Program-made: the position numbers and the translations under genes
Shown here: piece after piece, positions 19,937 to 44,108 of the stretch
Layout: every line of letters begins with the position of its first letter
Numbering within the stretch: position 1 is the stretch's first letter
Assembly (NCBI GenBank): GCA_024399065.1
Contig: JAKSIB010000005.1
Coordinates: 62,001 to 126,000, forward strand
Reading direction: 5' to 3'
DNA length: 64,000 nucleotides
Source: Fibrobacter sp.
GTDB taxonomy: Bacteria > Fibrobacterota > Fibrobacteria > Fibrobacterales > Fibrobacteraceae
The notes under the pieces: model-generated
The model's database searches: none
The model's input: only the letters and a program-made list of their open reading frames with translations
What the model was told of the DNA's origin: nothing

Positions 19937-20896
19937 TTAAATTATATCATTAAACCTGTTATTACGGATTTCAGTAAACATATTAGTATCCGAATCTGTT
20001 TTTTTCAGGGTAACATTGAATCGAATCAAGAACCCGGATACCTTCTTGATGAACGGAACACCCGTTATATCTTCAGGCGCCACGACCACATTGAACTCTC
20101 GGCCATTACCGGCGTCAACCTTAACACATGTTCCCAGTACAAGATCTTCAGGGTACATTTCAACAGTCGTATCGATCACATTGTCGGTTGCGTCATACGA
20201 ACATTTACCACATGGCGTGACATTAAACTTGACATGGAGATTGCCATTTTCACCACCATTAGATCCATTATTGCCATCACCACGCAAGTCCAGCTTCAAT
20301 ACACCCGGCATGTAATTAATTGGTTTGACAACCGTCTTTGTAACACTGCCAGAACCATTACACACATCGCACTTTTCTTCCGTCTTGTATCCGGTGCCGT
20401 CACAACCGATGCATTTACGCTTACGGCCCTTAAAATGGATCATTCCATAGCCACCACAATGAGGGCAAACATGATGTATTTTGGCACCAGTACCGGCACA
20501 TTCTAGGCATTCACTATGGCGGGTGAATGTGATCGGCATTGCCGGCACCCCAGTCATAAACATGTCGACCGGCAAATTGACTGTCAAGTCAATATCCGTC
20601 CCATGCTTCATGTTTTTGGGTTTTATAGGTTTTTTGCCAAAGTTTTTGGCAACTTCCGGACGTCCAAAAACTGATGCCAGCATATCAAAGTCGGCTGCAA
20701 ACGCATTGGATTCGTCATATTTCCTACGATCCTCAGGCGTCTTGATAATTTTATAAGCCTCATTCAGCTTAACCATCATGGAATCATCCCCATTATTCTT
20801 GTCAGGATGATATTTTTTAGCCAATATTTTGTACTGTTTCGCTATTTCAGCATCGGTAGCCGTTGGGCTAACCCCAAGAATCTCGTAAACACTCAT
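19937..20896 (-). CDS. dnaJ: DnaJ-type co-chaperone (Hsp40)
   Basis: This 319-residue protein would stimulate the ATPase of host DnaK and help protein folding or virion assembly. It has a J-domain with HPD at residues 30-32, and a zinc-binding cysteine-rich region with four CxxCxGxG-like repeats (CLECAGTG, CPHCGGYG, CIGCDGTG, CDVCNGSG) at about 125-195. A substrate-binding beta domain follows. It is shorter than E. coli DnaJ (376), mainly because the Gly/Phe linker is nearly absent. The start codon is unusual: its first two bases are the last two bases of an IS605-type element (20895-22352), and only the G is native. Removing the element would still give an ATG, because the target ends in AT. 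Confidence 0.93.
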   Translation of the reverse strand: MSVYEILGVSPTATDAEIAKQYKILAKKYHPDKNNGDDSMMVKLNEAYKIIKTPEDRRKYDESNAFAADFDMLASVFGRPEVAKNFGKKPIKPKNMKHGTDIDLTVNLPVDMFMTGVPAMPITFTRHSECLECAGTGAKIHHVCPHCGGYGMIHFKGRKRKCIGCDGTGYKTEEKCDVCNGSGSVTKTVVKPINYMPGVLKLDLRGDGNNGSNGGENGNLHVKFNVTPCGKCSYDATDNVIDTTVEMYPEDLVLGTCVKVDAGNGREFNVVVAPEDITGVPFIKKVSGFLIRFNVTLKKTDSDTNMFTEIRNNRFNDII

Positions 20897-21000
20897 GAAC
20901 TACCCTCCCACTAAAGATGGGTGGGTTTCCCCGTGTCCATCTGTGGCATTACAAGCTTCCTGCTCAAGGTGTGCAACCACACCAGTGTCAACAGGCTTAA
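20895..21000 (-). ncRNA. Predicted TnpB guide RNA (reRNA/omega RNA) of element 1
   Basis: In this family the guide RNA comes from the right end of the element, overlapping the end of tnpB and reading into flanking DNA. The region ends in the conserved hairpin and GTAGTTCAT; the flank, and so the guide, would begin GAGTGTTTACGAG, the first codons of dnaJ. The 5' limit is approximate. Confidence 0.5.
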
Positions 21001-22147
21001 TGGTTCCATCCATTCCCTCAGTCCCTGAGGTATTTCCACTTAAACGTATGCGATTCCCTTCATTCAGTATGTTGATAGCTGCGTTCTGGTCTCTATCTAG
21101 CCAAGTGCCACAATTCGGGCAAGTCCACTCTCTATCAGATAGAGTCAGGGTGGTATTCTTGTAACCGCAGCAGTGGCATAGCTTGCTGGACGGATAGAAC
21201 GAACCTACCTTGACATAGTATCTACCGTGCCAGTAGGACTTGTAGGCAACCATATCACAGAACCTACCGAACGATGCATCGGCTATTGCCTTGGCTAACT
21301 TATGGTTCTTCAACATATTTGACGGCTTCAGGTCTTCAGAGTAGATGTATTGGTTCTCTACAACTAACTGCTTGCTGACCTTGTGCTGGAAATCAATTCT
21401 CTGGTTTCGTATCTTCTCGTGTACCAGAGCGACACGGTGCTTCTGCTTCCGATAGTTATTTGAGCCTTTGGTGCAATGTGACAGCTTACGCTGTTCCTTT
21501 GCTAACTTTTGCTCACTCTTTCGGAAATATTTTGGATTGTCAATGACGCATCCATCGCTGTCTATCAAGAAATCCTTGATGCCGAGGTCGAAACCAACCT
21601 CATTTTGATTAGGAGGCAGTTTCAGCCGTTCATCATCCATTTCTACTAGGATGGAACAGAAATACTTACCCGTAGTTGACTTGGATATCGTCAGGCTGCA
21701 TACTTTGGTTATGGGCAATGACGTGAAATCATAATCTTGCCTAAACTTAACCAATCCCGCCTTCGGTATGAATATCCTATCGTTTCGTACACCTCGGATT
21801 AGCTTACCTATGATTTTCGACATCATCGCATTACGATAAGATTGTCTATCACTCTTCTTCTTGAACTTTGGGTAGTTAGCCTTCTTGTCAAAGAATTTCT
21901 GATAGGCTTCCTTGGCATCCATATAGACGTTTGCCATACCTTGGCTGTCGGCTTCCCGCATCCAAGGCCACTCCTCCTTGAACGACGCCAACTTCGGTGT
22001 AAATGACATCCGAGTTTCCTCGTATATAGCTTGCTTCAAGGCAATGAACTGGTTGTATATGAAACGGCAAGTGCCGAAGGTTCTATTGAAGAACCTCTCC
22101 TGCCGTTTAGTTGGATACAACCTTATCTTGAATGCCTTGTTTATCAT
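20900..22147 (-). CDS. tnpB: TnpB, RNA-guided nuclease of IS200/IS605 family
   Basis: This 415-residue TnpB would cut DNA next to a short target-adjacent motif as directed by an RNA from the element's right end, helping the element persist. The RuvC catalytic residues look intact: Asp in GFDLGIKDFLID, Glu in YSEDLKPSNM and Asp in DRDQNAAINIL. A four-cysteine zinc finger (CHCCG...CPNCG) lies between the last two. The ATG at 22147 starts MINKAFKIRLYPT, the usual TnpB opening. The C-terminal 35 residues run into the right end, and the stop TAG lies in the terminal sequence. It is closely similar to the TnpB at 30944-32191. A predicted pseudoknot covers its leader. Confidence 0.95.
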   Translation of the reverse strand: MINKAFKIRLYPTKRQERFFNRTFGTCRFIYNQFIALKQAIYEETRMSFTPKLASFKEEWPWMREADSQGMANVYMDAKEAYQKFFDKKANYPKFKKKSDRQSYRNAMMSKIIGKLIRGVRNDRIFIPKAGLVKFRQDYDFTSLPITKVCSLTISKSTTGKYFCSILVEMDDERLKLPPNQNEVGFDLGIKDFLIDSDGCVIDNPKYFRKSEQKLAKEQRKLSHCTKGSNNYRKQKHRVALVHEKIRNQRIDFQHKVSKQLVVENQYIYSEDLKPSNMLKNHKLAKAIADASFGRFCDMVAYKSYWHGRYYVKVGSFYPSSKLCHCCGYKNTTLTLSDREWTCPNCGTWLDRDQNAAINILNEGNRIRLSGNTSGTEGMDGTIKPVDTGVVAHLEQEACNATDGHGETHPSLVGG

Positions 22148-22155
22148 ATACAAAA

Positions 22156-22241
22156 ATGGCCCATTGAGGACTAAACTGGCATTCAATTCCCCAACAGGCC
22201 ACAAAATTCTTGTTTCCGATAGGACAATAGAGAATGCCAGT
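22156..22241 (-). ncRNA. Predicted H-type pseudoknot leader of tnpB, copy 1
   Basis: On the minus strand, ACTGGCATTC (22241-22232) pairs with GAATGCCAGT (22184-22175). GTGGCCTGTTGGGG (22202-22189), inside that loop, pairs with CCTCAATGGGCCAT (22169-22156) downstream: 14 pairs, four of them G-U. The second strand of helix 2 ends nine bases before the tnpB ATG. TATAAACG lies about 20 bases upstream (22262-22269). Copies 2 and 3 keep the pairing with different bases. Confidence 0.7.
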
Positions 22242-22351
22242 AATCCATTGTTCTACCTATACGTTTATACATTGTAGAAAAATATTTCAGATATGGCAAG
22301 TCGGCTATCATCTCACGGGCTAAAGACCCGTAAGTTTTCTCGCCGACAAAT

Positions 22352-22359
22352 TATAAACT
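22352..22359 (+). promoter_or_regulatory. Late-promoter motif TATAAACT at element edge
   Basis: TATAAACT lies 25 bases before the 189-residue gene. The first T is the terminal base of element 1 and ATAAACT is native flank. Confidence 0.7.
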
Positions 22360-22384: not shown

Positions 22385-22954
22385 ATGGCTAAGAATTCAA
22401 AAGGAATCACTGCAGCACAAAATATGAAAAACTGGGTTGATCTAACTGGGGTCGTCCAGAAAAAACACCAAAACAAGCTAAAAAATGGCAAATACCCACG
22501 TATGGGATTCCCGGAATGGAATTTCGACAGCGCCGTTGGCCACAGTCACCCTATGGGAACCGACGCTGGATCAGGAAACGGCGGATTTGCCGGCGGGGCA
22601 AGCCTTACCGCTGGATTTGCACCGTCAGCGGTAGCAACCAGTTCAGGCCCAGTCGCCGCAGCACCATGTGGCGAATCGATCGAACCGTCCGACTTCAACG
22701 CAATCCTTGAACATTTCAAGGCAGAAAATCCGACATCGGCCGTAGTCGATAAAATCAAAGATATGTTCAATGCGTCACAGGATGGAAATTTGACACCTCT
22801 TATCCATGATTCTGAAGGCGTCGATACTGTTGCAGACATGGAAAATCGACCAACGGACGACACCCAGACATCAGCGTTGGCAGCAGCATGTGAAGCTGTC
22901 TTATACGCATTCAAGGCATACACTGGAGTCGATTACTTCAATTACAGAAAATGA
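22385..22954 (+). CDS. Small Gly/Ala-rich protein, probable virion component
   Basis: This 189-residue protein is not recognised. It has a basic N-terminus, a Gly/Ala-rich low-complexity centre (about residues 58-95) and an acidic helical C-terminal half. A late-promoter motif stands before it. Its stop codon is TGA, of which the last two bases are given by the end of the neighbouring IS-derived element; exact removal of that element would give TAA at the same codon, so the protein is unchanged either way. Confidence 0.7.
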   Translation: MAKNSKGITAAQNMKNWVDLTGVVQKKHQNKLKNGKYPRMGFPEWNFDSAVGHSHPMGTDAGSGNGGFAGGASLTAGFAPSAVATSSGPVAAAPCGESIEPSDFNAILEHFKAENPTSAVVDKIKDMFNASQDGNLTPLIHDSEGVDTVADMENRPTDDTQTSALAAACEAVLYAFKAYTGVDYFNYRK

Positions 22955-23033
22955 ACTACCACCCACTAAAGATGGGTGGGTTTCCCCGAGCCCATCTGTG
23001 GCATTACAGGCTTCCTGCTCAAGGTGTGCAACC
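22951..23033 (-). ncRNA. Solo right end / predicted guide RNA without tnpB
   Basis: This 83-base segment is homologous to the guide-RNA region of elements 1 and 2, keeps hairpin CCCATCTTTAGTGGG, and has no tnpB next to it. A transcript reading leftward would carry the guide TTTCTGTAATTGAAG from the end of the 189-residue gene. It lies downstream of the terminator at 23110-23183, so its source of transcription is unclear. Confidence 0.5.
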
Positions 23034-23109
23034 TCAAGTCTCTGAACCATAACTTTCCGCAGTCTGCTGTGTGGCAAAGCCATACAGCAACAAGCTGCTG
23101 GCCCATATT

Positions 23110-23183
23110 AAAAAATCTGGTCCATTCTGAATAGGTTAAGTAGTCATAAGACCATCAAAACTCATTCATCAGAATAGGGCCAG
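23110..23183 (-). terminator. Terminator of the LRR cargo operon
   Basis: On the minus strand two arms (23183-23169, CTGGCCCTATTCTGA, and 23130-23117, TCAGAATGGACCAG) pair with one bulge and are followed by ATTTTTT. The loop is long (38 bases). Confidence 0.65.
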
Positions 23184-23210
23184 TTTGTATGAAATATTGT
23201 TTACAGCCGA

Positions 23211-23339
23211 TTACTCTAGATTGGGTCGGTCCGAAATCATATCCAATTGATTCCTGTCCGGTTCCTCACGCTTCTGTTTCATCTCAGCAATACGTTGCTT
23301 GAACTTGGCTATTACTCGCTCTTTCGTTTCTTGATTCAT
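23211..23339 (-). CDS. 42-residue charged protein, LRR cargo operon
   Basis: The product is strongly charged and helical (MNQETKERVIAKFKQRIAEM, then KQKREEPDRNQLDM). It starts 18 bases after the LRR gene's stop and has an excellent ribosome site (TAGGAG, seven bases before ATG), which is the main evidence. A terminator follows. Function unknown; it is part of the element's cargo. Confidence 0.65.
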   Translation of the reverse strand: MNQETKERVIAKFKQRIAEMKQKREEPDRNQLDMISDRPNLE

Positions 23340-23356
23340 GATGATTTCTCCTACAG

Positions 23357-24376
23357 TTATTTTTTCATATCTCCACCCCAATATACTGGGATTTGAGAAC
23401 GTTCAATCTTGGCCTGCTCTGATGCATACTCGCCTGTTTCTGGATTGTAGCCGCAATTAGTGAAACAGTCACTATAAGATCTAGCGACTACTGCATTATT
23501 GTAGAAATCAAGCATTCCGGCCTCGACAGATGTGCAGCCTCGAAACATAGTATTCATTTTCGTCACATTGGATGTATCAAGCCGTGGAATGCTTGTTAGA
23601 GATGTGCATCTATAAAACATAAAACTAGTATTCGTCACATTGGATGTATCAAGTTGTGGAATGCTTGTCAGAGATGTGCAGTCTCGAAACATATCATACA
23701 TAGTTGTCACATTGGATGTATCAAGCTGTGGAATGCTTGTCAGAGATGTGCAGCCCCAAAACATGTCTTCCATATCCGTCACATTGGATGTATCAAGCTG
23801 TGGAATACTTGTTAGAGATGTGCAGCCCCAAAACATACGAGTCATACTCGTCACATTGGATGTATCAAGTTGTGGAATGCTTGTCAGAGATGTGCAGTCT
23901 CGAAACATACCATACATACTCGTCACATTGGATGTATCAAGCTGTGGAATGCTTGTTAGTAATGTGCATCCTTGAAACATACTCTCCATATCCGCCACAC
24001 TGGATGTATCAGCAAACGCAAGGAATGAATATTCTATTCCAGTATATGTCCTATACCAGTCCTCGGTATCAAGAGTCACGTCCACCACAAGTGAAGGCTT
24101 GCTATTCTCAACAACAGATACCGACACCTGACTTTCTTCCAGTTCATATATTTCCGCCAAAATACTAGGCGTGGTAAGGGTCTCAACAGCGTCCTCGTAT
24201 GACATCTCAAGTTCATCCAGCATTTCCTCGGTAATCATATACTTTGCCCTATATGTCCTAGGCGGAAGAATAATCGGTTCTGGTCCGGGTGGAACGGGCG
24301 TAGGGGAAGGAGTGGGCTGGTATGCTTGGTTTTCTAACCACATAACGTAAGCCATATGCATCAATGTTGGAGCCAT
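23357..24376 (-). CDS. BspA-type leucine-rich repeat protein, element cargo
   Basis: This 339-residue protein has three parts: a short N-terminal region with a Pro-rich stretch (PTPSPTPVPPGPEP), a domain at about 40-140, and seven BspA-type repeats of 24 residues (LTSIPQLDTSNVTxMxxMFxxC). The repeats are nearly identical in DNA as 72-base tandem units, a sign of recent expansion. The end (NCGYNPETG, then IPxxWGG) is like that of the LRR gene at the start of the window. No clear signal peptide or membrane anchor is seen. The start has AGGA and a late-promoter motif 32 bases upstream. It lies inside IS605-type ends, so it appears to be carried by a mobile element. A role in host binding is inference. 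Confidence 0.85.
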   Translation of the reverse strand: MAPTLMHMAYVMWLENQAYQPTPSPTPVPPGPEPIILPPRTYRAKYMITEEMLDELEMSYEDAVETLTTPSILAEIYELEESQVSVSVVENSKPSLVVDVTLDTEDWYRTYTGIEYSFLAFADTSSVADMESMFQGCTLLTSIPQLDTSNVTSMYGMFRDCTSLTSIPQLDTSNVTSMTRMFWGCTSLTSIPQLDTSNVTDMEDMFWGCTSLTSIPQLDTSNVTTMYDMFRDCTSLTSIPQLDTSNVTNTSFMFYRCTSLTSIPRLDTSNVTKMNTMFRGCTSVEAGMLDFYNNAVVARSYSDCFTNCGYNPETGEYASEQAKIERSQIPVYWGGDMKK

Positions 24377-24408
24377 AATATCATCCTATTGCTTGACATC
24401 ATATAGAT

Positions 24409-24416
24409 AGTTTATA
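24409..24416 (-). promoter_or_regulatory. Late-promoter motif TATAAACT before LRR gene
   Basis: An exact TATAAACT lies 32 bases before the LRR start and inside the mobile element. Confidence 0.6.
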
Positions 24417-24526
24417 CGTTAGTCAACTAGATTGACCATACATTCAAATTTTCAGCAAGGATATAATCAGCATCAGTGAGTTTTCTTGCTACGACTATTA
24501 TAATGTATGATTGATTATCAACAAGA

Positions 24527-24547
24527 AACCCCCTCATTGAGGGGGTT
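24527..24547 (-). terminator. Terminator of the 2103-residue gene
   Basis: A 9-base-pair perfect stem (AACCCCCTC with GAGGGGGTT) with a 3-base loop lies 14 bases after the stop. Only a short T-run follows. Confidence 0.8.
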
Positions 24548-24560
24548 ATTTCATTGTGTT

Positions 24561-30938: not shown

Positions 30939-31044
30939 ATGAACTACCCACCCACTAAAGATGGGTGGGTTTCCCCGTGCCCATCTGTGGAATTACAGGA
31001 TTCCTGCTCAAGGTATGCAACCACACCAGTGTCAACAGGCTTTA
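30939..31044 (-). ncRNA. Predicted TnpB guide RNA of element 2
   Basis: This is the right-end region homologous to that of element 1, overlapping the end of tnpB. The flank that would serve as guide begins AATCAGCCATGCTAAA. The 5' limit is approximate. Confidence 0.5.
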
Positions 31045-32191
31045 GCGATTCATCGCTTCCCTTAGTCCGTGAGGTATTTCGACTTAAACGAATGCGATTT
31101 CCTTCGTTCAGTATGTTGAGAGCTGCGTTCTGGTCTCTATCTAGCCAAGTACCACAATTCGGGCAAGACCACTCTCTATCAGCTAGAGTCAGCGTGGTGT
31201 TCTTGTAACCACAGCAGTGGCATAGCTTGCTGGAAGGATAGAACGAACCTACCTTGATGTAGTATCTACCGTACCAGAATGCCTTGTAAGCAACCATATT
31301 GCAGAACCGTCCAAATGACGCATCTGCAATAGCCTTGGCTAACTTGTGGTTCTTCAACATATTTGACGGCTTCAGGTCTTCGGAGTAGATGTATTGGTTC
31401 TCTACTATCAGTCTCTTGCTGACCTTGTGCTGGAAATCAATTCTCTGGTTTCTTATCTTTTCGTGTACCAGAGCGACACGATGCTTCTGCTTCCGATAGT
31501 TATGCGAGCCTTTGGTACAATGCGACAGCTTACGCTGTTCCTTTGCCAACTTTTGCTCACTCTTTCGGAAATACTTTGGATTTTCTATAACGCAACCATC
31601 GCTGTCTATAAGGAAATCCTTGATACCGAGATCAAAGCCTATCTCGTTATCATTCGGTGGCAGCTTCATCCGGTCATCATCCATTTCCACTAGGATGGAG
31701 CAGAAATACTTGCCTGTTGGGGACTTGGATATCGTCAAACTGCATACTTTGGCTATAGGCAATGACTTGAAATCATAGTCCTGTCGGAACTTGACCAATC
31801 CGGCCTTCGGAATGAATATGCGGTCATTCCTAACACCACGAATCAATGTTTCAATGGTCTTAGGCATCATTGCATTGCGGTAAGACTGCTTATCACATTT
31901 CTTCTTGAACTTCGGGTAACGTGATTTGCCATCAAAGAACTTCTGGTATGCACCCTTGGCATCCATATAGGCATTAGCCATTCCCTGACTGTCGGCTTCC
32001 CTCATCCAAGGCCATTCCTCCTTGAACGAGGCCAACTTAGGCGTAAATGATATACGAGACTCTTCAAAGATTGACTTCTTCAAGTCTATGAACTGGTTAT
32101 AGATGAAACGGCAAGTGCCGAAGGTCTTGTTGAAGAACTTCTCCTGTCTTACTGTCGGGTACAACCGTATCTTGAATGCCTTGTTTATCAT
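30944..32191 (-). CDS. tnpB: TnpB, RNA-guided nuclease, second copy
   Basis: This 415-residue TnpB is nearly the same as the one at 20900-22147, with scattered substitutions. RuvC residues are intact: Asp in GFDLGIKDFLID, Glu in YSEDLKPSNM, Asp in DRDQNAALNIL. The zinc finger CHCCG...CPNCG is intact. The stop TAG lies in the right end. The open frame without decay in both copies suggests the nuclease is still under selection or recently arrived. Its predicted pseudoknot leader has different bases but the same pairing as in element 1. Confidence 0.95.
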   Translation of the reverse strand: MINKAFKIRLYPTVRQEKFFNKTFGTCRFIYNQFIDLKKSIFEESRISFTPKLASFKEEWPWMREADSQGMANAYMDAKGAYQKFFDGKSRYPKFKKKCDKQSYRNAMMPKTIETLIRGVRNDRIFIPKAGLVKFRQDYDFKSLPIAKVCSLTISKSPTGKYFCSILVEMDDDRMKLPPNDNEIGFDLGIKDFLIDSDGCVIENPKYFRKSEQKLAKEQRKLSHCTKGSHNYRKQKHRVALVHEKIRNQRIDFQHKVSKRLIVENQYIYSEDLKPSNMLKNHKLAKAIADASFGRFCNMVAYKAFWYGRYYIKVGSFYPSSKLCHCCGYKNTTLTLADREWSCPNCGTWLDRDQNAALNILNEGNRIRLSRNTSRTKGSDESLKPVDTGVVAYLEQESCNSTDGHGETHPSLVGG

Positions 32192-32199
32192 ATACAGAA

Positions 32200-32282
32200 A
32201 TGGCTAGTAGCGGACTAATTTGGCGTTCATTCCACTACCAGCCATCAAAAACTCTTTGATTTCGTGGATTGGAGAACGCCAA
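32200..32282 (-). ncRNA. Predicted H-type pseudoknot leader of tnpB, copy 2
   Basis: On the minus strand, TTGGCGTTC (32282-32274) pairs with GAACGCCAA (32228-32220). ATGGCTGGTAGTGG (32245-32232) pairs with CCGCTACTAGCCAT (32213-32200): 14 pairs with two G-U. Compared with copy 1, bases change on both sides of the helices so pairing is kept. TATAAATT lies 19 bases upstream (32301-32308). Confidence 0.7.
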
Positions 32283-32308
32283 TTATCCTATCCACCATAT
32301 AATTTATA

Positions 32309-32467
32309 TTACTTATTTTGCGTTTTAGTTATGTTACCCTTGTCATCCACCATACATACACCCATCTTGGATTTTCTCATCATAGCAGCATCGATGCCAG
32401 TCATTCCATTCTTGGAAATCATTTCTTCAATGACCTTATCCGTGTCCAATTTCAATTGTTTATCCAT
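32309..32467 (-). CDS. Possible 52-residue protein inside element 2
   Basis: The open frame (MDKQLKLDTDKVIEEMISKN, then GMTGIDAAMMRKSKMGVCMV and DDKGNITKTQNK) looks like a real protein in composition, with a predicted helix and a small beta hairpin. The ribosome site is weak and element 1 lacks it. It may be cargo of the element or a remnant. Function unknown. Confidence 0.45.
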   Translation of the reverse strand: MDKQLKLDTDKVIEEMISKNGMTGIDAAMMRKSKMGVCMVDDKGNITKTQNK

Positions 32468-32564
32468 ACGACATACCACATTAAATATATCATTAAACTA
32501 TATTATTTTCATCCGCAATTCATCTCACGGGCTAAAGACCCGTGAGTTTTCTTGCTACATCTAT

Positions 32565-32572
32565 TATAAACT
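32565..32572 (+). promoter_or_regulatory. Late-promoter motif TATAAACT at element edge
   Basis: TATAAACT lies 26 bases before the 1067-residue gene. Its first T is the terminal base of element 2. Confidence 0.7.
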
Positions 32573-32598
32573 TAGGGAAAACATGCCGGTGGGATTTT

Positions 32599-40806: not shown

Positions 40807-40880
40807 ATGCAGCGGATAGGTTTTCGCCTGACATAGCATAATCACGTTCCATTTCACGATAAATGGACTTCTCAGTGTAT
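40802..40880 (-). pseudogene. Detached 3' end of the polymerase-like gene
   Basis: On the minus strand this 79-base piece encodes YTEKSIYREMERDYAM, then SGENLSAAL and a stop. Joined to the main part (42628-44108) by exact removal of the element 40881-42627, it gives one open frame of 519 residues (1481 + 79 = 1560 bases). It has no start of its own. Confidence 0.85.
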
Positions 40881-40990
40881 TTGACATACTCCCACGACTA
40901 AAGTCGTGGGATTCTGGGAGTTGCTACGGTGAGCAACATATCCCAAAGGTAGATGCCCCTACCTTACATAAGTTTCGAGCGGCATTCAGG
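40881..40990 (-). ncRNA. Predicted TnpB guide RNA of element 3
   Basis: The right end of the element overlaps the end of tnpB and closes with the terminal hairpin and TCAA. The flank that would serve as guide begins ATACACTGAGAAGTCC, the polymerase gene sequence. The 5' limit is approximate. Confidence 0.5.
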
Positions 40991-42027
40991 TCTCTATCGT
41001 GATGACATCCGCAAACGGGACAAGTCCATTCACGAATAGATACATCCTTTAATAGATGATTCTGATAACCACATTCACTACATAGCTGACTAGAAGGATA
41101 GTATTTATCGGCATACATAACGGTCTTACCAGTCTTGTGTGCCACATACTCCAGTATGTTCAAGAAAGTGTTGAACCCGAAGTCATACATCGACTTCTTG
41201 TACTTCTTGGACATATTAGCTAAGTCTAGCGTCTCGAATACCATCACATCGTAGTCACGGCACATTTGCCGTGCCAGCTTCCAGTGCATGTCCAAACGCT
41301 GATTAGCCACCTTCTCATATAGCTTCTGCAATGTACGCAGCGAACCTCGTTTTCCTTTAGACCTACGGTATTTCTCCGATAAGTTCCTTAAAGAATTGAG
41401 GTTTTTTCGCAGTAGCTTTGACATACTACAATCATCACCATTAGAGGAAACCAAGAAGTCATGTAGACTGAAGTCGAAACCAACGATTTCACCCGATTTA
41501 GTCCATTCTTCGTATACTACTTCTTGCTCTACGACAATGTATATGTAGAAGCCATTACTTTTACGCTTGACGGTCAAGGTCTTGACCTTGCCATTAAAAT
41601 CCCTACTATTCCAATAGGGAAAATCTTTTTTGCCTATCTTAACACGATTAAAATCATGAAACTTATATCCAGCTTGCTTGGTCGTGAACGACCTATACTT
41701 CGCAGTTTTCTGGAAATGCGGTGGATTAGTCTTCTTACCAGCCTTTAGATTGGCGAAGAACAACCGATATGCTCGGTCTATCCTGTCCGTGATGTCTTGA
41801 ATTGCTTGTGAAGGAACCTCATTCCACTCTGGATAGTGTTTCTTTGACTTCGTGAGATGTTTCTGCAACTGATACTTGTTCAACATCTTATGATAGATGC
41901 TATAGTACCTACGGTGCAGAGCAATGCAATGGTTATATATCCGACCAGCAATAACAAGTATGTTGTCGAGATACTTCAAGTCATCCCGATTGTACAGCTT
42001 GTACTTGTATGTCTTCAATTCAACCAT
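40924..42027 (-). CDS. tnpB: TnpB of element 3, distant from the other two
   Basis: This 367-residue TnpB belongs to a different branch from those of elements 1 and 2. RuvC residues: Asp in GFDFSLHDFL, Glu in VFETLDLANM, Asp in HDRDLNAARNL. The zinc finger is CSECG...CPVCG. ATG 42027 (MVELKTYKYKLYN) is preferred to TTG codons just upstream. No Shine-Dalgarno site is seen; the region is occupied by helix 2 of the predicted pseudoknot, and a TATAAACT motif lies upstream of that, so tnpB may be transcribed apart from tnpA. Confidence 0.92.
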   Translation of the reverse strand: MVELKTYKYKLYNRDDLKYLDNILVIAGRIYNHCIALHRRYYSIYHKMLNKYQLQKHLTKSKKHYPEWNEVPSQAIQDITDRIDRAYRLFFANLKAGKKTNPPHFQKTAKYRSFTTKQAGYKFHDFNRVKIGKKDFPYWNSRDFNGKVKTLTVKRKSNGFYIYIVVEQEVVYEEWTKSGEIVGFDFSLHDFLVSSNGDDCSMSKLLRKNLNSLRNLSEKYRRSKGKRGSLRTLQKLYEKVANQRLDMHWKLARQMCRDYDVMVFETLDLANMSKKYKKSMYDFGFNTFLNILEYVAHKTGKTVMYADKYYPSSQLCSECGYQNHLLKDVSIREWTCPVCGCHHDRDLNAARNLCKVGASTFGICCSP

Positions 42028-42038
42028 AGGCAACAAGA

Positions 42039-42118
42039 AATGCCAGTTAGACGCTTATTGTGGTGGTTAGCATCCAACTGGCACTCAAAGTCCGTTCTTG
42101 ATATACGATAACCACCAC
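42039..42118 (-). ncRNA. Predicted H-type pseudoknot leader of tnpB, copy 3
   Basis: On the minus strand, GTGGTGGTTA (42118-42109) pairs with TAACCACCAC (42069-42060). AGTGCCAGTTGGAT (42085-42072) pairs with GTCTAACTGGCATT (42052-42039): 14 pairs with three G-U. Order, helix lengths and distance to tnpB match copies 1 and 2, while the paired bases are unrelated. TATAAACT lies 19 bases upstream. Confidence 0.7.
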
Positions 42119-42136
42119 GAAATCGCATATACTAGA

Positions 42137-42144
42137 AGTTTATA
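42137..42144 (-). promoter_or_regulatory. Late-promoter motif inside element 3, before tnpB leader
   Basis: TTATAAACTT lies on the minus strand between tnpA and tnpB. A transcript starting about ten bases later would begin with the pseudoknot and then tnpB. Confidence 0.55.
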
Positions 42145-42148
42145 ACAT

Positions 42149-42547
42149 TTACAATTTAGATTTCTGGTCTTCTATGTATTTTGTGACCGTTTGCTGGCTA
42201 ATATGTCCAACGGTTTCGCAATAATAGGAACGAGTCCATAATGATTTCATACTAGCCAACAATTGAAATTCTTGCCTCAATATCCTAGAACTATACCCTT
42301 TCAGTCCCTGTACTACATTTGCGATTGACTTAGTTGGCGGACATTTGATGAATATGTGGATGTGGTCTGGCATTACTTCCATAGTATCTATTGTACACGC
42401 CATTTCAGTAGCCTTCGCTACCAAAATCTCCTTCAGCCTAGTTTCTATAGAGCCACGAAGATATTTTCGCCTATATTTTGGACACCATATCACATGATAT
42501 CCTATGTTATATACACAAGTTGCCGAACGATTCCATCTAGCATTCAT
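42149..42547 (-). CDS. tnpA: TnpA, Y1 transposase of IS200/IS605 family
   Basis: This 132-residue enzyme cuts and joins single-stranded DNA at the element ends. The HUH motif is seen in MPDHIHIFIK (HIH, about residues 61-63), and the catalytic Tyr is in TVTKYIEDQ near the C-terminus. Conserved features such as the opening YNIGYHVIWCPKYR and LVAKATEMACTIDTMEVMPDH fit the family, and length is normal (130-155). It is the only tnpA in the window. Its target TTAC differs from that of elements 1 and 2, so it probably does not move them. Confidence 0.95.
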   Translation of the reverse strand: MNARWNRSATCVYNIGYHVIWCPKYRRKYLRGSIETRLKEILVAKATEMACTIDTMEVMPDHIHIFIKCPPTKSIANVVQGLKGYSSRILRQEFQLLASMKSLWTRSYYCETVGHISQQTVTKYIEDQKSKL

Positions 42548-42590
42548 ATCTCAAATATAATACATTCATAAACTAGCTGCAAGGTTCGCA

Positions 42591-44108
42591 TCATCCCACG
42601 GCTAAAGCCGTGGGCTTTCGGTTCAGCGTAAGATTACCCATAGCCTGATCATAGGCTTCATATTCGATTTCGGTCATCGTCGGAATTCCAAGGAAATGCA
42701 GTTCACGATCAACCAGAGCCTTAACCTTATCAGTATATTCCATTGGAACCATGATAGAATCATGCACAGTGCAGAAATGGCAACCAATCTCGGACTTGAT
42801 CTTCGGGCAGATTACATTGAACACGAATACGCTTTCAGTCTTCTGCAGTTCATGGGCCAATGCCTTGTAATTGTTATGCTTGATAGCGTTGATACATTTA
42901 GTCAGTACAGGGAATTCAGTCTTCCAAACCTCTCGAATCAACCTGCGCATTTCCTTGGTATCGTTCGGGTTATATGCCTTACCAAACAGATACTCCATGA
43001 ACCCCTTCTTGGCTTCCTTTCTAGTAATTTCACGGCCGGCTACAGAGGACATCCCTTCAGCAAAAAACTCGTAGATCCTTCCATTAGACAGCAGATGTTC
43101 ATATTTCTGCAATTCATTGAACCAATCCCACATCACGGTATCATAGTTATAGTCATTCCAGAACGGGACCAAATTCACAAAGGTCAATGCTTCCAGATCA
43201 GATTCAGCGGTAAAATGGCCAGCCTTATTATAGCACAGATTCAGCAAACTATATAGACCTGCAGCCTGCGAAGACTTAATATCAACCTCGCCAATTCTAG
43301 ATCCATCACAACGCATAGACGCCAGACGAATCTCACGCTTCAAGCTGGTGACATTAGTATGAATTCGGCCATACTGGTCATGCTTGACATACAATGCATT
43401 CTCATCGGTCTTGGCATTATCAAATCGCTTCTTCTTCTGGCGTTCGATGTTTTCCTTATAGGAAGACATTCCTTTCTGTCGCAAAGACGCAATAGTATCG
43501 TCAAATGCCTTCTCATCTATAGTAAAATGTTCCAGTTCCTCATGACACATGGCCACAATAGGGTCGTTCATGTGTCTTTGCTTGATTTCACCCAAGAACT
43601 TACCCCATTTACGAATCAAACGAGGTGTCTTGATCTTAACTGCACGCATCTTGCCAATAACACGGGCAGACCCATCAACTTCCTTCTTGTTAATGCGGGA
43701 TTCGACAAAATCCTTGTAATAGCGAGCATATTCAGGTTTTAGCCAAATAGCCTTGCACAATCCCTTAGTATCGCATGAACTGACAACATACCCATTGCTT
43801 CTACCTATGAATCCAGCTGATTCGAGGAACTGCAGCACTTTGGTATAGTTATTACCTATAACATTCTTCAACACCACTGCAGAAACATTAACACACCAAT
43901 GAGCAAATGGAACCTTAGATCGGCTAACCCCTTCAGAAATCTTAATAACATCAAGTCGTTCCATCAATCCATGGGTCACTATAGCCAGTGTAATCACACA
44001 GGATTCATAAAATTCTGCTGAAATCTGCTCAAAATCGTAAAATTTACGCAAATCAGTAGATATCAGGTCAGGAAGAACAAACTTAAAAGTAGAAGCAGGG
44101 TCAGTCAT
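42591..44108 (-). CDS. Family-A-like polymerase palm protein, 3' end cut by IS605
   Basis: The 505-residue frame looks like a nucleic-acid polymerase of the family A DNA polymerase / single-subunit RNA polymerase fold. A winged-helix-like region (about 85-130, YTKVLQFLESAGFIG) precedes the palm. Motif A is GRIHTNVTSLKREIRLA followed by GEVDIKSSQAAGL (about residue 274). A motif-B-like helix is RKEAKKGFMEYLFGKAYN (about 360), and motif C is CTVHDSIMVP (about 449). No exonuclease domain is seen. The last ten residues (NRKPTALAVG) come from the left-end hairpin of the element; the native end is at 40802-40880. The catalytic core is before the insertion, so the shortened protein may still work. 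It is transcribed leftward from the divergent control region. Confidence 0.6.
   Translation of the reverse strand: MTDPASTFKFVLPDLISTDLRKFYDFEQISAEFYESCVITLAIVTHGLMERLDVIKISEGVSRSKVPFAHWCVNVSAVVLKNVIGNNYTKVLQFLESAGFIGRSNGYVVSSCDTKGLCKAIWLKPEYARYYKDFVESRINKKEVDGSARVIGKMRAVKIKTPRLIRKWGKFLGEIKQRHMNDPIVAMCHEELEHFTIDEKAFDDTIASLRQKGMSSYKENIERQKKKRFDNAKTDENALYVKHDQYGRIHTNVTSLKREIRLASMRCDGSRIGEVDIKSSQAAGLYSLLNLCYNKAGHFTAESDLEALTFVNLVPFWNDYNYDTVMWDWFNELQKYEHLLSNGRIYEFFAEGMSSVAGREITRKEAKKGFMEYLFGKAYNPNDTKEMRRLIREVWKTEFPVLTKCINAIKHNNYKALAHELQKTESVFVFNVICPKIKSEIGCHFCTVHDSIMVPMEYTDKVKALVDRELHFLGIPTMTEIEYEAYDQAMGNLTLNRKPTALAVG

Follow-up and report, generated by a model that had tools for sequence, protein, structure and literature searches.

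A DUF285/LRR gene bracketed by type-A IS200/IS605-like ends in a Fibrobacter phage contig

The segment at positions 22951-24499 of the window carries both ends of a type-A tnpB element, and these ends bracket an LRR gene. The window is the whole stretch of 64,000 nucleotides that was analysed, and corresponds to positions 62001-126000 of contig C5 in a 3.8-Mb metagenome-assembled Fibrobacter genome (G000:C5:62001-126000). On balance, we take the segment to be an immobile remnant of a type-A tnpB insertion, the interior of which was replaced via microhomology by a segment containing the LRR gene and a second, type-B element. Coordinates below refer to the window unless a contig is named.

The phage contig and its tnpB elements

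The genes of contig C5 (164 kb) are those of a large phage, including baseplate wedge, primase, helicase, SbcC-like, UvsX-like and exonuclease families. Related DUF285 genes are also present on contigs C31 and C15 of the same assembly, and related elements on C31; these contigs may be further pieces of the C5 phage or of a similar one. The end of C5 falls within a copy of a type-B element (C5:164215-164362), the phage assembly thus being broken at a repeat. The octamer TATAAACT occurs 45 times in C5, as compared with 5-10 times in Markov models, and 29 of the 45 copies lie at most 80 nt upstream of an ORF start. Given this overrepresentation and placement, TATAAACT looks like the phage's own promoter element and is likely to be specific to the phage.

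Three kinds of tnpB element, designated types A, B and C, are present in the assembly. Those of types A and C to which the segment was compared, and the type-A sites, are as follows.

20895-22352, minus strand: element 1, type A, tnpB-only (tnpB 20900-22204)
30939-32565, minus strand: element 2, type A (tnpB 30944-32191 and a 52-aa ORF adjoining the left end)
C5:54.6-55.8 kb: degraded type-A copy
22350-22359, 32563-32573, C5:54.55 kb, C31:33651 and C31:24174: type-A sites, mostly at AGTTTAT/AAT (slash, element boundary)
40924-42547, minus strand: type-C element (tnpA 42149-42547, Y1; tnpB 40924-42036)

Type-A copies share TTTAT/AAT (mostly), a left hairpin and a right end terminating in TAGTTCAT/, and copies with 78-91% DNA identity are found in IMG/VR phage contigs. 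The 52-aa ORF lies between the left end and tnpB at 32312-32467, at C5:54632-54787 and, in an IMG/VR copy (L024), at 1207-1362. This accessory ORF is 83% identical between copies and has no Pfam match. Most type-A sites are AGTTTAT/AAT, located within the promoter-like TATAAACT just upstream of a gene, and TATAAACT is re-created by the left end's first base in the majority of copies, so that the insertion may be harmless. The type-C element (window 40860-42640) is a complete IS605-type element with tnpA, tnpB and the ends TTAC/...TCAA/.

Two further elements were observed on C31. One (C31:33651-33925; L007:2152-2426) is a ~275-bp ends-only type-A element without tnpB, which includes a left hairpin, a TTGACA...TATATT promoter-like pair, a right-end-RNA-like region and a right end, and could be a standalone source of guide RNA. 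The other (C31:24060-24174; L032:4060-4174) is a tnpB element with two left-end-like hairpins in tandem.

Type-A ends and the insertion site

The features at the boundaries of the segment are given below.

22385-22954, plus strand: 189-aa phage gene, left flank, its stop changed from TAA to TGA through the insertion
22951-23036, minus strand: type-A right end, ~94% identical to the right ends of elements 1, 2 and 4
24476-24499, minus strand: first 24 nt of a type-A left end, without the following hairpin, 22/24 identical to element 2
24500-24504, minus strand: target/TAM position, ATTAT
24527-24551: terminator hairpin AACCCCCTCATTGAGGGGGTTATTT, from the sequence

The initial annotation described a right end like those of elements 1 and 2, and this likeness extends to the fourth copy. 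The subterminal hairpin that an IS200/IS605 mobile unit requires at this end, CCCACCC-ATCTTTA-GTGGGTGG, is intact, and the end terminates in TAGTTCAT. The match of the left end to element 2 was likewise as annotated, and the matching stretch includes the likely guide sequence GAAAAC. When both strands of C5 were scanned, the matches at 24, 22 and 21 positions were all true left ends, and the best match outside an element was 16/24 in the 164 kb; hence, the left-end match of the segment is not due to chance. The two ends are in the correct order and orientation, as had been stated.

Exact removal of 22951-24499 had been claimed to rejoin the upstream gene with a TAA stop. Indeed, ...AATTACAGAAA then meets ATAATG..., which gives NYRK-TAA; the present TGA stop derives from the last bases of the right end. 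The convergent gap after removal is 58 nt, other convergent gaps in C5 being mostly 25-75 nt, and the terminator AACCCCCTCATTGAGGGGGTTATTT comes to lie ~27 nt past the stop of the flanking gene. Taken together, the two ends, the restored stop and the normal gap indicate that the whole stretch is most likely a single insertion site. However, the target in elements 1, 2 and 4, in the C31 copies and in the left end at C5:142 kb is TTTAT, and the ATTAT of the segment departs from these sister copies.

The same data bear on two alternatives. The segment could consist of two separate type-A remnants, namely a right end beside a type-B remnant and a 24-nt left end, on either side of an LRR gene that was already resident. 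In favour of this, a phage-type promoter of its own precedes the LRR gene, and a fusion at C5:142.6 kb (see below) shows that a lone left end can persist upstream of an LRR gene. Nevertheless, the order, orientation and spacing of the ends are correct, the stop codon is restored, and the convergent gap is normal only after removal of the whole segment, all of which make two independent remnants unlikely. Alternatively, the segment could be an assembly chimaera across repeated element ends, since repeats do disturb the assembly of this metagenome-assembled genome, as seen from the break of the contig inside another type-B copy at 164362. Such an artefact is highly improbable, because the end copies and the type-B remnant of the segment differ by 6-12% from other copies, which is enough for unique placement, and the reading frames are intact.

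Gene content of the segment

Between the two ends, the following features were found.

23357-24376, minus strand: DUF285/BspA-type LRR gene, 339 aa, 72-bp repeats (Pfam PF03382, E 7e-39; PF13306)
24409-24416, minus strand: phage promoter-like motif TATAAACT, 33-40 nt upstream of the LRR gene start
23211-23339, minus strand: 42-residue ORF behind the LRR gene, its stop codon within the type-B left end
23030-23214, minus strand: type-B tnpB element remnant, from gapped alignment to the full copy at C5:19.4-20.9 kb and BLAST
23096-23214, minus strand: type-B left end/leader in the remnant, ATG start 23104-23106
23050-23095, minus strand: 3' part of tnpB in the remnant, after a ~1.14-kb internal deletion

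The BspA-type LRR gene reported between the ends is real. Its ORF is intact, with profile scores of 132.7 bits for PF03382 (cut-off 25) and 40.7 for PF13306 (cut-off 27.7). The LRR protein is probably expressed and, as its phage homologues weakly suggest, probably a phage adhesin or tail-type repeat protein. The 42-residue ORF has no Pfam match and, as its stop sits in the type-B left end, probably represents the first part of a longer gene that has been truncated.

The segment was originally thought to contain no tnpB, but a deletion remnant of a different tnpB element is present at 23030-23214. Its gapped alignment to the full type-B copy scored 227, as compared with a null maximum of 102. 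The internal deletion, which removed ~1.14 kb of tnpB, runs between the similar sequences CAGCAgTGTGGC and GGCCTGTGGC, and the remnant passes into the type-A right end within GAGGTTGCA, which is partly common to both types (shared GAGGTTgCA). The type-B left end supplies the stop codon of the 42-residue ORF and also the hairpin formerly read as a terminator. Thus, of the promoter motif and terminator that had been proposed, the motif TATAAACT upstream of the LRR gene stands, whereas the hairpin is the tnpB leader of the type-B element itself. Hence, the interior is not composed of cargo only, as it would be in a passenger derivative, but includes a gutted type-B tnpB.

Mobility of the segment

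Transposition of IS200/IS605 elements requires a hairpin at each end, the left one for binding of TnpA (PMC7290912, PMC5934647). The inner left hairpin had been noted as missing from the segment, and the DNA fold agrees, with z = 0.12 for its left end; the corresponding values are -4.97 (element 2) and -2.70 (left end at C5:142 kb). No Y1 transposase is encoded within the segment, and the sole one found in the assembly (42149-42547) belongs to the type-C element, which has different ends. A cognate TnpA for type A was not found in the assembly; it could be provided by the host strain or a co-infecting phage. The earlier suggestion that the segment may now be fixed is well supported.

A role of the segment as a source of full guide RNA was also considered. 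The right-end RNA of ISDra2 is ~150 nt (PMC8612924), and the ~80 nt of type-A right end left in the segment weakens this proposal.

Fusion of another LRR gene to a type-A left end

Another LRR gene adjoins a type-A left end elsewhere in the contig.

C5:142465-144250 (G000:C5:142465-144250; L029:16566-18250): second DUF285/LRR gene fused to an intact type-A left end

After the intact left end (at C5:142470) and its hairpin comes a degraded version of the 5' part of the element's 52-aa ORF; at 142.6 kb, this is joined to the LRR gene at GT(A/T)GATGC, a sequence common to the 52-aa ORF and the LRR gene start. No type-A right end was detected downstream of this gene (score 18, null mean 17.9), and an in-frame TGA cuts off its C-terminus. 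The LRR proteins of the two fusions show 47% identity, rising to 52-53% in the N-terminal region. They share the N-terminus LM(H/R)M..(V/I)MW(L/M)E with each other and with a third protein encoded on C15, the gene for which has no left end. The upstream sequences differ, the LRR gene of the segment having its own TATAAACT promoter and that at C5:142.6 kb being fused to the element ORF. With a different junction and promoter at each locus, the fusions look like separate events, and a left end and an LRR gene have apparently been joined at least twice. As roughly estimated from counts (five left ends and three DUF285 genes in C5), the probability of two LRR/left-end neighbours by chance is well below 0.001. 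The association is thus probably real, but it could reflect cargo transport or, equally well, deletions that fused a tnpB element to an LRR gene in its vicinity.

Searches for relatives

The empty-site pattern, AATTACAGAAA joined to ATAATGTATG, had no match in IMG/VR, and the flanks had no useful relatives in the collections searched. Viral contigs, phage records, GTDB contigs and 80 genomes from the genus yielded no useful relatives of the LRR protein, of its N-terminus or of either flanking gene, the one match of the 189-aa gene (28% identity, E = 2.5e-4) being too weak to use. Among 60 related genomes and 167 genomes of the phylum, the right end of the segment was found only in its own assembly. 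The right-end pattern was absent from GTDB contigs and present in four IMG/VR contigs, all of which had ordinary tnpB elements and lacked homologues of the flanks and of the LRR gene. None of the collections searched yielded a second copy of the bracketed unit, or a related phage in which the site is empty or occupied by tnpB. Thus, there is only one site at which this cargo was seen with both ends: the segment is a single copy, and the second LRR gene has no right end.

Origin of the segment

According to the explanation favoured here, a type-A element (tnpB-only, IS200/IS605-like) would have inserted between two convergent phage genes. Everything between the inner side of the left end and a point within the right end would have been replaced by a new segment. 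This segment would have comprised a phage gene of the DUF285/LRR kind together with its own phage-type promoter, the first part of a further gene, and an inserted type-B tnpB element with an internal deletion. Its pieces would have been joined at short microhomologies, and the resulting element could no longer move. We infer this order of events, the arrival of the LRR gene by recombination instead of riding in with the insertion and, as no relative with an empty or filled site was found, the replacement in place. The position of two of the three LRR genes of this type just inside a type-A left end speaks against this explanation, as it is also expected of a family of passenger-carrying elements.

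The segment had indeed first been interpreted as a passenger-carrying derivative that spreads the LRR gene among phages. In this case, type-A ends would have taken up the LRR gene, and the unit would have been moved to its present site by TnpA acting in trans and would later have lost the left hairpin. Type-A ends in the correct order and orientation do bracket the gene, and removal is clean and leaves the 58-nt gap; moreover, the second LRR gene lies inside an intact left end with a hairpin, and the ends-only element on C31 shows that tnpB-free type-A elements exist. However, the interior is a mosaic, the hairpin is lost, the unit was found only once, and the second fusion, without a right end, has a different junction and promoter. 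In addition, the only TnpA found sits in an element with TTAC/TCAA ends, and the target is ATTAT, not TTTAT. A passenger origin is thus possible but doubtful, and the further claim of spread among phages is unsupported, as no other bracketed copy was found and the only TnpA found in the assembly belongs to the element with different ends. It is also rather improbable, as a general model, that phage-borne IS605-type ends repeatedly capture DUF285/LRR adhesin-like genes and transport them from site to site and from phage to phage, while sister elements act in trans, via the conserved right end, to provide tnpB-guided retention.

Passenger genes in IS200/IS605 elements are seemingly rare in the literature, and a pair of correct ends is no proof of a mobile passenger unit. 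The two separate joins of a left end and an LRR gene in one phage contig suggest that tnpB elements can help to remodel phage repeat-protein genes, even without ferrying these genes as cargo.

Comparison with known systems

The segment shares with tnpB-only IS200/IS605 elements (IS1341-like; elements 1 and 2) the right-end hairpin and TTCAT terminus, the first 24 nt of the left end and their orientation, but it lacks the type-A tnpB and left hairpin, has the ATTAT target and contains the LRR gene and type-B remnant. Like PATE or MITE-like derivatives, it is non-autonomous, with no working tnpA and tnpB. An ends-only IS605 derivative of this kind, described in Halanaerobium, is 271 nt long and keeps its ends without a passenger gene (PMC7290912), whereas the segment is 1.5 kb, carries a gene and has no left hairpin. 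The ~275-bp element on C31 fits this class much better than the segment does.

ISDra2 and IS608 transpose by a peel-and-paste mechanism, and right-end RNA guides TnpB (PMC8612924, PMC5934647). The layout of their ends (cleavage site, guide sequence and subterminal hairpin) is that of the segment, which also keeps the target at its left flank; however, its target differs, and it lacks TnpA, a working TnpB and the left hairpin. The TTAC/...TCAA/ ends of the type-C element follow the IS608 pattern (PMC5934647). The LRR protein has the same 72-bp (24-residue) repeats as phage BspA-type LRR/DUF285 proteins, its phage-encoded relatives being ~40% identical over the repeats, whereas its N-terminal region, unmatched in the phage collection, is matched only in two other genes of the assembly.
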